Assembly: GCF_000969905.1 (NCBI RefSeq)
Contig: NZ_CP009520.1
Location: forward strand, 4,030,001 to 4,094,000
Source: Methanosarcina vacuolata Z-761
GTDB taxonomy: Archaea > Halobacteriota > Methanosarcinia > Methanosarcinales > Methanosarcinaceae
Length of the DNA: 64,000 nucleotides
Direction of reading: 5' to 3'
The notes beneath the pieces were generated by a model. The model was given only the letters and a program-made list of their open reading frames with translations, was not told the DNA's origin and searched no databases. Positions within the stretch are counted from its first letter, which is position 1; the number at the start of each line of letters is the position of its first letter. Below are positions 32,263 to 38,708 of the stretch, in pieces. Both the position numbers and the translations under genes were made by a program.

Positions 32263-32337
32263 GCTCCGATAGTGTAGCTCGGCCAATCATTCAGGACTCT
32301 CACTCCTGCGACTGGGGTTCAAATCCCCATCGGAGCA
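32263..32337 (+). tRNA. tRNA-Glu (anticodon CUC)
   Basis: The cloverleaf can be folded by hand. Acceptor stem GCTCCGA pairs with TCGGAGC; the anticodon stem CAGGA/TCCTG encloses the loop CTCTCAC, giving anticodon CUC (reads GAG); the T arm is TGGGG-TTCAAAT-CCCCA; the discriminator base is A. The 3' CCA is not encoded, as is normal for archaea. The GTGTAGCTCGGCCAATCAT D-arm is typical of archaeal tRNA-Glu. Confidence 0.95.
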
Positions 32338-32592
32338 CTTTTCTTTGTTACAATTTTTTTGATGTTGTATTTTAGGGTTTCTGCAGTTGAACTTTAAAAT
32401 CAATAGCTATATCCTTAAAAGTCTAAGAACCTAAATTTATAAACACTCTATCTATTCTATTTGATCTTATACTTCAATATGTAAATTCCAAATATGTAAT
32501 AGGAAGAAAGCGTTTAATTTTAGCAGAAAACAATGTTATGAGAGTAAATCATTAAGGATTACTTGAGATAGATGAAGTGAGGTTACTAATCA

Positions 32593-33535: not shown

Positions 33536-34621
33536 ATGCCAGATAGTCAATATCCCCCAACAGTAAAAACTGGGAAAATAGGTGTAGACTTTAATACTCT
33601 TGGAAAAGTTGAGCATAGTGCAGAACTTCCAGAAGAGATTCAAGAACATACCAACGAACTTTTAGAACGTTATCGCCTTATGTCCGAAAATGTGATTTTG
33701 AATGAAAAAAATTTAACCAAGAAAATTGGTGTCATCAGAGGTGAGAATCTAGTCAAAGGTGATAATGTACCTACTGATAGATGGGACATCTTTGCAGCAA
33801 TGTATACTATTGGATCAAATGACGGCAGTTGCGGCATCACATTTGAGACCCGAAAGAGTCCAGGCTCTATTGTCGAAAGAATGAGGATAGATACTGCTGG
33901 CAATGTAGGTATCGGAACGACAACTCCTGAAGCTGGGCTTCATATTGATAAAGCAAGTACGAATGATGTAGCTTTGAAGCTATCTTCTAATGGTCCTGGA
34001 TGGGGTTCGGGGATTCAATTAAAAAATAAAGATATCAAATATGGAATCTATGCAGGTTTTGGACAATTTAAAATTTGCGATGCGAACAAGAATGTAGACC
34101 GATTAATCATAGATGCTGCTGGCAATGTAGGTATCGGAACGACAAGCCCATCAGCTAAACTAGAAGTAAGTGGGGATGTTAAAGTAACGGGAGACATCTT
34201 TCTTACGGGCGGTGCGGACTGTGCTGAGGATTTCGATATTGTAGGTGCAGAGTCAATAGAACCGGGTACCGTAATGGTCATCGATAATAATGGATCTTTA
34301 CGAGCAAGTGAGCAAGCTTACGATAGGAGGGTGGCTGGGGTGATTTCAGGGGCTGGTGATTATCGTCCAGGCATTACGCTCGACAGGCAAAAAGCGAGAT
34401 CTAATCGTTTACCCATTGCCCTAACTGGTAAGGTGTATTGCAAAGTAGACGCAGAGCACAGTCCAGTCGAGGTTGGTGATTTGCTGACTACATCATCTAC
34501 TATAGGTCACGCTATGAAAGCCGATAGTCGTACTAAGGCATTTGGTGCTGTTATTGGGAAAGCTCTACATGAATTGGAGGATGGAAAGGGACTTATTCCG
34601 ATTTTAGTTGCTCTGCAATAA
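33536..34621 (+). CDS. Phage tail-fibre-like repeat protein
   Basis: 361 residues. Two copies of a fibre repeat ending GNVGIGTT(T/S)P occur at about residues 121-131 and 196-206, preceded by RMRID(T)AG / RLIIDAAG. This repeat is characteristic of trimeric fibre and S74-chaperone-type proteins. After KLEVSGDVKVTGDIFLTGGA comes a C-terminal domain (about 230-361) with CAEDFDI, GTVMVI, RRVAGVISGAG and PIALTGKVYCKV, common at the end of such bacterial proteins. There is no signal peptide. The phosphoesterase gene follows at once. A role in surface attachment or virus-like structures is possible; no other phage genes are present. Confidence 0.7.
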   Translation: MPDSQYPPTVKTGKIGVDFNTLGKVEHSAELPEEIQEHTNELLERYRLMSENVILNEKNLTKKIGVIRGENLVKGDNVPTDRWDIFAAMYTIGSNDGSCGITFETRKSPGSIVERMRIDTAGNVGIGTTTPEAGLHIDKASTNDVALKLSSNGPGWGSGIQLKNKDIKYGIYAGFGQFKICDANKNVDRLIIDAAGNVGIGTTSPSAKLEVSGDVKVTGDIFLTGGADCAEDFDIVGAESIEPGTVMVIDNNGSLRASEQAYDRRVAGVISGAGDYRPGITLDRQKARSNRLPIALTGKVYCKVDAEHSPVEVGDLLTTSSTIGHAMKADSRTKAFGAVIGKALHELEDGKGLIPILVALQ

Positions 34622-34634
34622 AGGACTGGTCAAA

Positions 34635-35822
34635 ATGACTGACTTGAGTTTGAGACAATATATACAAATGGAAACTGACCCAACTCAAGGGGTTCGGTCT
34701 TGTTGCGCTCCTAGTATGAATACGAGAACAATTAGTTTGAGAAATCTCATATCGGGATTAAAAATTATCCATATCTCTGATCTTCACTTTACTAGCTCTG
34801 CACACACATTAAATTCCAGGAACGATAAGCCTATTTATGTTGATTCTCAGAATAGTAAGGTAAGGAGTGATACCATTGCTTCATTTATCATTGAGAACAG
34901 GTCTCGCTTTGGAACGAACAAGGTTGTTATCACCGGAGATCTTACTGATAGCGGTGATGATGCCGATTATAAAATAGCTCAGACTTTTGTTCAGAGACTG
35001 AAAGATGCCGGATTTGAAGTCTATGCAGTTCCTGGCAACCACGATTATTGCAAGGAAGGAAATATTGTCGCGAATACAGCAGTAAATGAAGGATTAAAGG
35101 CTATCTTCTGCCCTTTGTGTCCCTCCCTCCCTTCACCCCTCCTACCCTTTGGTTGCTGTGTACATACTATTTTTGGTAGTCTGGCCCCTCGAGGGGCTAA
35201 GTGCCCAATAGATGTTTTCCTTGCAGATAACGCATCAAAAGAAGAACGCCGACAGAGATTCATCAATTATATCACTCATTATAACCAGTACCCACATGTT
35301 GTGGATTTCGACAGTGGGCGATTAATATTGTTAGACTCCATGCAGGGAGAACTCGATGAGATCACTACTGATATATTCGCTCAAGGGAAATTAGGAGATG
35401 CACAATTATCCGAGTTGAATCACTTTATTGATGAATATCAAGAGCAGCGAAAAGTAGGGAAAAAAATTATTGTATGCCTTCATCATTCTCCTTTTGCTAC
35501 AGATTCAAAGATATGTTTGAAAGACTCCAGTAAATTTTTGAAAATTATTTGTGATAAAATTGATTGTCGTGATAAAATTGATTGTCTACTATTTGGCCAC
35601 ACAACTCCAGACAATGTATTTCAGCGACCATGGCTACAAGACAGCGAGTTCGAAGGTTACGAGAAAAATAATAAAACGCCATTAATTAATTGCGAGAATC
35701 TAGAATGTGTGTCTGAAGGATCACCCTACCCAATAACAGTTCTTGATCTCGGATCTTTGAGAAGGTTAGTTTATAGGACAGATGGATCTGAACCCAAACG
35801 CTCGTGGGGTAATCCGTCCTAA
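34635..35822 (+). CDS. Calcineurin-like metallophosphoesterase with N-terminal tag
   Basis: 395 residues. The metallophosphatase motifs are IHISDLHFT (about residue 46), VITGDLTDSGDD (about 99), VPGNHDY (about 133) and VCLHHSPF (about 281). The last motif reads LFGHTTPD, so the second His of the usual GHxH is missing. Residues about 157-188 form an odd Cys/Pro-rich insert (CPLCPSLPSPLLPFGCCV) encoded by a C-rich stretch. The first 20 residues (LSLRQYIQMETDPTQGVR) closely resemble the start of the lectin gene at 36213. The start at 34635 is chosen over 34608 as it follows AAGGA and avoids overlap. Confidence 0.75.
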   Translation: MTDLSLRQYIQMETDPTQGVRSCCAPSMNTRTISLRNLISGLKIIHISDLHFTSSAHTLNSRNDKPIYVDSQNSKVRSDTIASFIIENRSRFGTNKVVITGDLTDSGDDADYKIAQTFVQRLKDAGFEVYAVPGNHDYCKEGNIVANTAVNEGLKAIFCPLCPSLPSPLLPFGCCVHTIFGSLAPRGAKCPIDVFLADNASKEERRQRFINYITHYNQYPHVVDFDSGRLILLDSMQGELDEITTDIFAQGKLGDAQLSELNHFIDEYQEQRKVGKKIIVCLHHSPFATDSKICLKDSSKFLKIICDKIDCRDKIDCLLFGHTTPDNVFQRPWLQDSEFEGYEKNNKTPLINCENLECVSEGSPYPITVLDLGSLRRLVYRTDGSEPKRSWGNPS

Positions 35823-36006
35823 ATAAATGGAAGGGGTCGCATAATTATGAGAAATGAGCGTACTTAACGCAAATGTAAACGAAGTTAACAGTTCGACTAC
35901 GGAGCGTATGATGATACGCGGAGCGGAAATGGATTGGACTGTCCATCCATTTGACGAAACAAAGATGAGCCTAAAGAATCCCCTGGGTAGCAAAAAGATG
36001 CATAAC
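35823..36006. other. Spacer with small hairpins
   Basis: GCGTAT-GATG-ATACGC (about 35905-35920) is a perfect hairpin inside a CGGAGCG...CGGAGCG direct repeat, and ATGGATTGGACTGTCCAT (about 35929) is another. No gene. It lies directly before the miniature element at 36007. Confidence 0.4.
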
Positions 36007-36164
36007 AAGCTGTCTCAAAAATAGATCAATTTCTATAATTGGATAATTGCCATTGTTGACTTTAAAATTAGACCGGAAATTATTCTGAAATTCAGGCATA
36101 TATTTGCCTTAAAGTAGGACAAATTATCCCGATTGTAGAATTAACTGTAGTTTTGAGACAGCTT
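36007..36164. mobile_element. Second type of miniature inverted-repeat element (158 bp)
   Basis: Perfect 14-bp terminal inverted repeats AAGCTGTCTCAAAA (36007-36020) and TTTTGAGACAGCTT (36151-36164) flank a non-coding AT-rich core. TGTCTCAAAA ends are common in transposons. No target duplication could be made out. Confidence 0.7.
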
Positions 36165-36212
36165 GATAATTAAAATATCTCATAAAGATGCTTCTTCGAG
36201 GAAGGTGCTGAT

Positions 36213-37433
36213 ATGTCTTTTACTAGCTTAAGAGAGTATTTAGAATGGAATAGATTTGACCCCTCAGAAGGTATTCGTCAAGTTCCTATTTTTCAAACTC
36301 ATTCGTCAGTGAGATCTCTATTTACGTGTAAATATAGAATTCGTAATGTGCTGTTGTCCAAACAACAGCTTAAACAAAGAGACCAATTAGTCTCAAAAAA
36401 CCATTTTTTAAAATTAAATATGCAGGCTGATGGAAACGCTGTCTTGTATCGGACTGACAACAATAAAGCATTATGGGCATCAAATACATCAATGAAACCA
36501 GTTAATCGAATTGTCATGAAAGAGGACGGGAATCTGAAGGCTTGCGATCCTGCTGACAATGTTTACTGGGAATCTGGGACGCAAGGATGCCCTGACTCAA
36601 AATTAGTGCTTCAAGATGACGGTAATTTAGTTATCCTGGATAATTCGGGCCAGATAAGATGGATAACACATACTGAACAGGGATGGGATTTTAATGTTGT
36701 GGATTTGTTTAACTTCGATATTAAAGAGTTGTTTTACAATCTCAATGTATGGGAAAAGATACTTAATTTAATTTCTTTAGCAGGCTTTCTGTGGGACGAT
36801 AAGCAGAATATATTCTACTCCAAAGTAGATCCATGGCAGGCAAACTTTGGGTACCTTAACCTTTACGATGAAGCATCACCATTGGCAGGAATGTTTATCC
36901 ACTGCGAACCTATCCGCTTCAAAGCAGGAGGAAAGAGTTGGAAAATAGAGTTCTGGAAAGGGCGCTATGGAATTTTTATTGGAGCCGAGATTGGAGTGTA
37001 TACAGGGGAATTCGAAATCGACACAGGCATAGAAGTAATCGACAGATCAATAAATAACCTGGATTCAGACAAAGACACGCGATGCGCGTGCGGTGAAGAT
37101 GAAATGCTTCAGATGTCATTTGAATTATACGACAATAACGATTTACTTTTCAGTAGAAACAGCGACGATCCGGATACAGATATGATTGAGAAGCACTGGT
37201 GGTTAACAGGTTTTAAATTTCCGACGCCAGATACGGTTTCTGTCAGTTATAATGATCTCATCATGAACATAGAGATTGCATTTATGGATCAAGAGATGAC
37301 GGATGGATTTATAAATGGCTTAGAAAGGTTAGGATACTCAAGGAACACAGATTTCTTTGTTTATGGCAATACAGTAAGAGTCACCTTTAAGAGACCTCGT
37401 TCAACGGCTCATCAGCCATTTTTACAACCCTAA
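36213..37433 (+). CDS. Bulb-type lectin plus DUF4474 protein
   Basis: 406 residues. After the N-terminal tag SLREYLEWNRFDPSEGIR comes a mannose-binding bulb-lectin domain (about 55-150) with three QxDGN-type repeats: MQADGNAVLY, MKEDGNLKAC and LQDDGNLVIL. The C-terminal part (about 190-400) has WQANFGYLNLYDEASPLAG, CEPIRF, WKIEFWKGRYGIFIGAEIG, HWWLTGFKF and VYGNTVRVTF, which match my memory of DUF4474. No signal peptide. DUF4474 has no known function. Such lectin fusions are rare in archaea and point to transfer from bacteria. AGGTG precedes the ATG. Confidence 0.78.
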   Translation: MSFTSLREYLEWNRFDPSEGIRQVPIFQTHSSVRSLFTCKYRIRNVLLSKQQLKQRDQLVSKNHFLKLNMQADGNAVLYRTDNNKALWASNTSMKPVNRIVMKEDGNLKACDPADNVYWESGTQGCPDSKLVLQDDGNLVILDNSGQIRWITHTEQGWDFNVVDLFNFDIKELFYNLNVWEKILNLISLAGFLWDDKQNIFYSKVDPWQANFGYLNLYDEASPLAGMFIHCEPIRFKAGGKSWKIEFWKGRYGIFIGAEIGVYTGEFEIDTGIEVIDRSINNLDSDKDTRCACGEDEMLQMSFELYDNNDLLFSRNSDDPDTDMIEKHWWLTGFKFPTPDTVSVSYNDLIMNIEIAFMDQEMTDGFINGLERLGYSRNTDFFVYGNTVRVTFKRPRSTAHQPFLQP

Positions 37434-37714: not shown

Positions 37715-38708
37715 ATGCACGACCAAGAGATGCACGGGATTAAAAACCATGAGTACAGAAAATATGCGGGATATTCAAAATCTCAAAAAAAACTTCGCGG
37801 CTACCTTTTCGGCACCGTCTGTGCTGATGCTCTCGGTCGTCCTGTAGAACACCTGGCCCTTGAGCAAATAAAGGAGAAATACGGAGAAAACGGAATCCTT
37901 GAACTCCCACCCAATTCTCCCTGGACTGATGATACCCAGTTGATGCTTGTACTTGCCAGGGCTCTGCTTCGAGGAGCATAACTTGAACTTCCCAAACTTA
38001 TGGATAAGATTGCAAAAGAGCTTGTCCTATGGCTGGACGAACCTGACCTGGGTGCAGGAGCAAACACAAAAGGCGCAGCCCTGAACCTGAGGGATGGTAT
38101 TCACTGGAGCAAATCCAGACTAAATTCAAAAACATGCGGAAGCCTCATGCGGATTGGAATCCTTGGCTTTATCTTCCGGAACGATCCTGAAAAACTGATT
38201 AAAGCAGCTTCAATTTCCGGCAGAATTACTCACACCCATCCAACTGCAAATGCTGCCTCGGTTGCAGGAGCATACGCTGTAAAATTGGCTCTTGACGGGG
38301 TGGAACCCACGGAAATGTTTGAACCGCTTCTTGAGGGAACTCAGGGAATTTCTCAAGAATTTACTCAGGCACTGGAAAGTTCCTATAGAACGGCTTATAG
38401 CGATATTGGAAACGAAGACGGTTTGAAGAAACTCGGGCAAGGCTGGTATGCAGACGAAACTTTTGCCCTGGCATACTTTCTGCATATTGCGTTATCCGAA
38501 CGATTACAAAAAAGTAATACAGACCGCAGTGAATATAACCGGAGATTCGGATTCGGTTGCAAGTGTGGCAGGAGGCATTCTTGGAGCCAGACTGGGGATT
38601 GAAGCAGTGCCTATTTCCTGGATTGAAGCGCTTAAGGAAAAAGAAATACTGGAGGAAATGGTGGGGCCTCTGCTTGAAAAATATTTTCAGCTTTCAGGAA
38701 GTAAATAA
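37715..38708 (+). pseudogene. ADP-ribosylglycohydrolase, disrupted
   Basis: The family (DraG-like) removes ADP-ribose from proteins or small molecules with two Mg ions. Motifs are visible in order: RGYLFGTVCADALGRPVEH, WTDDTQLMLVLARAL (metal site), TKGAALNLRDG, TCGSLMRI, ITHTHPTANAAS, and GDSDSVASVAGGILGARLG (metal site). An in-frame TAA at 37979 splits the N terminus from the rest. A +1 frameshift near 38470-38480 then moves the C terminus into another frame (reading continues at FCILRYPND). With both lesions it should be inactive, unless recent sequencing errors are involved. Confidence 0.88.

Follow-up and report, generated by a model that had tools for sequence, protein, structure and literature searches.

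Two unrelated proteins encoded behind a fibre-like gene of Methanosarcina vacuolata Z-761 begin with a common tag, and the same kind of tag was found on unrelated proteins next to genes of this fibre family in other phyla. The tag has a repeat structure, lies at protein termini, moves between cargoes and is linked to the fibre family. We consider it fairly probable that this segment serves for docking, its three half-sites binding to the three-fold fibre.

Two neighbouring proteins share a tripartite N-terminus

The window analyzed here is a stretch of 64,000 nucleotides (contig NZ_CP009520.1, positions 4,030,001 to 4,094,000, forward strand) of a genome that was searched as 4.56 Mb in two contigs. 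It contains a row of three genes on the plus strand (Table 1). The first encodes a fibre-like protein in which a variable N-terminus is followed by a shaft of VGIGTT-P-AKLEV repeats and a conserved C-terminal domain. The second, a metallophosphoesterase gene, starts with an ATG 13 nt behind the fibre stop, while the third combines B_lectin and DUF4474, its lectin part matching putidacin L1.

Table 1. Features of the fibre/cargo cluster (window coordinates)
Feature	Position	Strand	Evidence
Fibre-like protein, 361 aa	33536..34621	+	PHROGs tail-fibre matches; shaft vs Bdellovibrio MAT fibre Bd2133, 8OND
C-terminal fibre domain, aa 213-361, putative docking platform	34172..34618	+	Alignments A2/A4; AF2; Foldseek
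Tagged cargo 1, calcineurin-like metallophosphoesterase, 395 aa	34635..35822	+	PF00149 (Metallophos), E 1.6e-12
Phosphoesterase half-site 1, LSLRQYIQ	34644..34667	+	Matrix score 16.0
Phosphoesterase half-site 2, QGVRSCCA	34686..34709	+	Matrix score 3.0; conserved column in A3
Phosphoesterase half-site 3, ISLRNLIS	34731..34754	+	Matrix score 16.9
Tagged cargo 2, B_lectin + DUF4474, 406 aa	36213..37433	+	PF14751, E 1.2e-52; PF01453, E 4.7e-7
Lectin half-site 1, TSLREYLE	36222..36245	+	Matrix score 12.0
Lectin half-site 2, EGIRQVPI, degenerate	36267..36290	+	Aligned A3 column; missed by matrix
Lectin half-site 3, SSVRSLFT	36303..36326	+	Aligned A3 column; sequence inspection

The initial annotation had pointed out a motif common to the N-termini of the two cargo proteins, which we could confirm (MTDLSLRQYIQMETDPTQGVR from 34635 and MSFTSLREYLEWNRFDPSEGIR from 36213), and the Pfam assignments (Metallophos, PF00149, versus B_lectin and DUF4474, PF14751) bear out that their remaining parts are unrelated. 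The pattern described there holds but was ended too early, as the shared stretch continues to about residue 40 and takes in another half-site, the third, which reads TISLRNLIS in the phosphoesterase and SSVRSLF in the lectin protein. Over its roughly 40 residues the tag repeats a short half-site, hydrophobic-S-[LVI]-[RK]-x-[LY]-[LAI], three times, and in this pair the middle copy is degenerate (QGVR, EGIR). With a matrix trained without it, the phosphoesterase tag scored 35.9, where 14.4 marks the 99th percentile of the background; owing to its degenerate middle half-site, the lectin-protein tag reached only 11.5. The AF2 model of the phosphoesterase, a weak one built on two sequences, has a low-confidence N-terminus in which residues 6-12 and 35-39 form short helices, corresponding to half-sites 1 and 3.

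Since the window offers just two such sequences, a chance resemblance, or shared descent of two neighbouring genes only, might be suspected. When the first 45 residues of the 42 window genes were compared, however, the two proteins formed the second-best of 861 pairs, behind two adjacent CrcB-like genes that appear homologous, and none of 20,000 shuffles reached their score. Together with the cross-phylum data below, this leaves the suspicion with hardly any credibility.

The cluster is probably an import. A profile of the two tag sequences found nothing comparable beyond the two window genes in 295 genomes of the phylum, which gives the cluster an imported look, and import is made probable by a search of 31 genomes of the genus, which found no phosphoesterase orthologue in any of them and the fibre C-domain in four, one copy being divergent. 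Within the genus, the direct relatives of this enzyme are generic phosphoesterases. Upstream of the fibre gene, at a distance of about 1.2 kb, lies a tRNA-Glu gene (32263-32338), at which the imported cluster may have integrated. Just behind the cluster, an ADP-ribosylglycohydrolase (37715-38602) is spread over two reading frames and is therefore probably a broken gene.

The tag recurs at fibre loci of other phyla

The portion of the fibre that is conserved elsewhere comprises its C-terminal 149 residues, an alignment of which retrieved 80 loci, spread over many bacterial phyla and including some from archaea; the fibre was present in only three of 339 cyanobacterial genomes sampled. Scanning the flanks of these fibre genes and listing the genes downstream revealed that the motif recurs beside them. 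A half-site at a protein terminus, defined as no more than 60 residues from the N-terminus or 45 from the C-terminus, was found in 30 of 63 first-downstream genes versus 9 of 771 others (Fisher p about 1e-29), while counts in protein middles and with control patterns were flat.

Because part of these data had already been inspected when the half-site pattern was picked, we added two held-out tests, and only these are clean. After training on half of the loci, repeated half-sites were detected in 29 of 65 held-out genes versus 23 of 1076 background genes and in none of 58 protein middles. When entire cargo families were withheld, 27 of 65 genes, belonging to 13 unrelated cargo families, exceeded the background 99th percentile, compared with 17 of 1300 shuffled termini. 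The background is conservative, since its best matches were mostly genes that themselves lie near a fibre. At a permissive threshold, 22 of the 32 tagged N-termini contained three sites and ten contained two; none contained four.

A Bacillota locus (L086) reproduces the window operon, with fibre, tagged phosphoesterase orthologue and second tagged protein in this order. Its phosphoesterase is 47% identical to that of the window and bears the tag sequence MAGLSLRSYLERQGIVPGQGLRGYCAPGLNPIGLRSLIS, while the next gene carries the tag MPDISIRQFLHWNGFDPTVGLRGLLPGGGGSVRRLLAF. By eye the second protein had been taken as DUF4474-like, which was rejected given the lack of a Pfam match and a BLASTP alignment covering mainly the tag. 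One more locus with a fibre and an unrelated tagged protein behind it (score 29.2) comes from a different genome of the window's genus and lies outside the training data. Copies of the tag at the C-terminus were observed at L078, L102 (RRLRIFLQNSGVNGADGLRPLLPNSKAISLRNLLGV, A3 alignment), L103, L154 and L082.

Cargo that is exchanged as modules while the gene ahead of it is conserved would also be expected of a recombination relic, that is, a common 5' segment that permits cargo swapping behind the fibre gene by homologous recombination and has no role at the protein level. The conservation of the protein pattern despite wide sequence divergence and the existence of C-terminal tags speak against such a relic, and we regard it as very improbable. 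Only slightly less improbable is a pro-peptide, intramolecular chaperone or self-assembly segment that works independently of the fibre. The tag is terminal, short, repeated and carried by many hydrolases that possibly need to stay inactive, all of which would suit this role, but it is attached to unrelated folds, including a lectin protein, and at either end. Moreover, strong matches (E 1e-12 or better) of the window-type tag profile A3 in 16 genomes, all of them members of the profile, were confined to fibre loci.

Not every fibre gene is followed by a tag. About a third to a half of the first-downstream genes carried no clear tag, and among six loci of the same fibre class found after training, L230 alone passed the strict threshold; L192, L190, L219 and L228 contained one or two half-sites by eye and L189 none. 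The tag is thus common without being universal, or else the matrix is too narrow. Searches of plasmids and viral contigs with the tag alone yielded nothing useful. When loci with unrelated cargo were compared, tag similarity did not follow fibre similarity (Spearman -0.004). A platform as strongly conserved as this one would be expected to give such a result, which is neither decisive nor counted as support.

A fibre family with a predicted decoration-type C-terminal domain

The fibre shaft is homologous to that of the solved, trimeric Bdellovibrio MAT fibre Bd2133 (8OND; phmmer E 3e-16). The C-terminal domain, which is 52-70% identical across phyla (alignments A2/A4), had no solved relative by sequence. 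Foldseek with its AF2 model (mean pLDDT 90.7) returned the C-terminus of phi29 gp12 and phage head decoration proteins (3GQH, 3SUC, 6QYY, 8HDT) with E-values of 2.6e-4 to 9e-4, a probability of 1.0 and TM scores of 0.39-0.65 at high rmsd. Both phi29 gp12 and the head decoration folds are trimeric. The chain was modelled singly, and from relatives we infer a homotrimeric fibre. The fold of the C-domain is supported by prediction and the trimeric state of the fibre by homology.

Hydrophobic N-termini were nearly absent from fibres of the window class (1 of 85). More divergent fibres from Acidobacteriota and Chloroflexota had signal-peptide-like N-termini in 20 of the 26 cases with a start, and none of the scored genes downstream of them passed the tag threshold. 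These look like a different, secreted class. As tags accompany the fibres without a signal and not the divergent ones, the tag and a cytoplasmic fibre go together.

In the divergent class (L193-L226) the C-domain sits on long fibres, most of them with the signal-peptide-like N-termini just described, in up to seven copies per genome and without tagged neighbours. Two fibre genes of L118 (9224-10447 and 6478-7860) share the same starting segment ahead of the shaft, which Pfam identified as a PqqD-like domain in the one gene scanned.

Cargo families and possible release

The majority of cargo proteins had no Pfam family, although both window proteins have assignments. The families recognized were M12/reprolysin-like metalloproteases, a PF04185 phosphoesterase, class 3 lipase, GDSL lipase (whose own tag was not clear by score) and fn3 proteins. 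A HEAT-repeat gene often follows the tagged metalloprotease (Pfam HEAT_2 for L112, L113 and L117, annotation for L072, by eye for L084 and L095) and perhaps encodes an inhibitor, immunity or assembly partner.

Only two of 65 cargo proteins had a hydrophobic N-terminus. The near absence of such N-termini from both cargo and fibre resembles payloads of extracellular contractile injection systems (eCIS), and small soluble hydrolases would be plausible eCIS payloads. The tag could accordingly direct loading into a contractile injection system, or into some other machine for release, and the fibre would then be only a neighbour or a further payload. In line with this, the eCIS_core domain PF13699 was detected in 15 of 30 fibre-bearing genomes (G317-G349) versus 10 of 80 genomes from three phyla that lack the fibre and, within the Acidobacteriota, in four of five versus one of 40, an association to which habitat or genome size could contribute. 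On the other hand, half of the fibre-bearing genomes lack PF13699, the window genome had no match to it, and inspection of genes around the window revealed no recognizable eCIS cluster. The signals of eCIS payloads are likewise N-terminal and found on cytoplasmic hydrolases or toxins, but they have no conserved sequence (PMC11297309), whereas the present tag has a recognizable pattern and can be C-terminal. As an explanation of the tag, loading of this kind appears unlikely; we retain it as a rival that may instead be a downstream step.

A docking model and its relation to known systems

According to the initial annotation, the shared motif would serve docking, sorting or loading, perhaps with the adjacent fibre as carrier. 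This proposal gained support, with fibre binding still putative: the tag is carried by unrelated proteins that cluster with fibre relatives across phyla, and its carriers are many and extend well beyond orthologues of the window pair. The case for binding is made by gene linkage, by a tag that sits at the end of the protein and can switch both terminus and cargo type, and by three half-sites matching a trimer. In the docking model, some 35-45 residues at the end of the protein would form a flexible tag whose three half-sites lie about 13-18 residues apart. Each half-site is probably a serine-capped turn of an amphipathic helix, as suggested by the serine ahead of a short amphipathic segment. 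The platform would be the conserved C-terminal domain, of the phi29 gp12/head-decoration fold, of the homotrimeric fibre, and one tag probably spans three equivalent trimer sites with one half-site per protomer. Occupation of all three sites by one tag would result in one enzyme per fibre. The likely end use is delivery of hydrolase and lectin to a target surface.

Encapsulin cargo-loading peptides and the dockerin-cohesin pair also rely on a short terminal module that brings unrelated enzymes to one scaffold. The present system would share with them the scaffold and the short terminal module for unrelated enzymes but differs in having three half-sites and a fibre as the putative partner, and neither encapsulin nor cohesin was among the Pfam matches of the window operon and about 36 fibre-linked proteins. 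The phi29 gp12 and decoration proteins resemble the fibre C-domain in predicted fold, yet only at 13-17% identity and high rmsd, and the window fibre sits outside any phage gene neighbourhood. We know of no cargo tag for these proteins.

Bdellovibrio MAT fibres have a homologous beta-helical shaft and, according to the parts of the published account consulted, are trimeric, with a signal peptide, a conserved N-terminal domain of about 130 aa and modular C-terminal tips on the trimeric beta-helix; tagged cargo is not described in those parts (PMC10769870). Unlike them, 84 of 85 window-class fibres lack a hydrophobic N-terminus, and the C-domain of the window fibre has another fold. As modelled, the tag system works like scaffold-plus-docking-tag systems and is a member of none of those tested. 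A literature search of papers outside subscription returned no published description of the tag, which is weak evidence of novelty. That the whole constitutes an undescribed cross-domain arming system, in which a signal-less homotrimeric fibre with a decoration-type cap receives exchangeable enzymes through a terminal peptide of three pseudo-repeats at a cargo:trimer ratio of 1:3, is a tentative proposal that we hold at slightly less than even confidence.

If the docking model is true, one fibre family would, in bacteria and archaea alike, hold hydrolases and lectins of unrelated kinds through a peptide of 40 residues. This would explain how such fibres become armed, assign functions to many hypothetical proteins encoded beside tail-fibre-like genes, and supply a transferable tag by which a single enzyme could be mounted on a trimer. 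The pattern of tags and fibres suggests a putative general means of plugging enzymes onto a three-stranded fibre.
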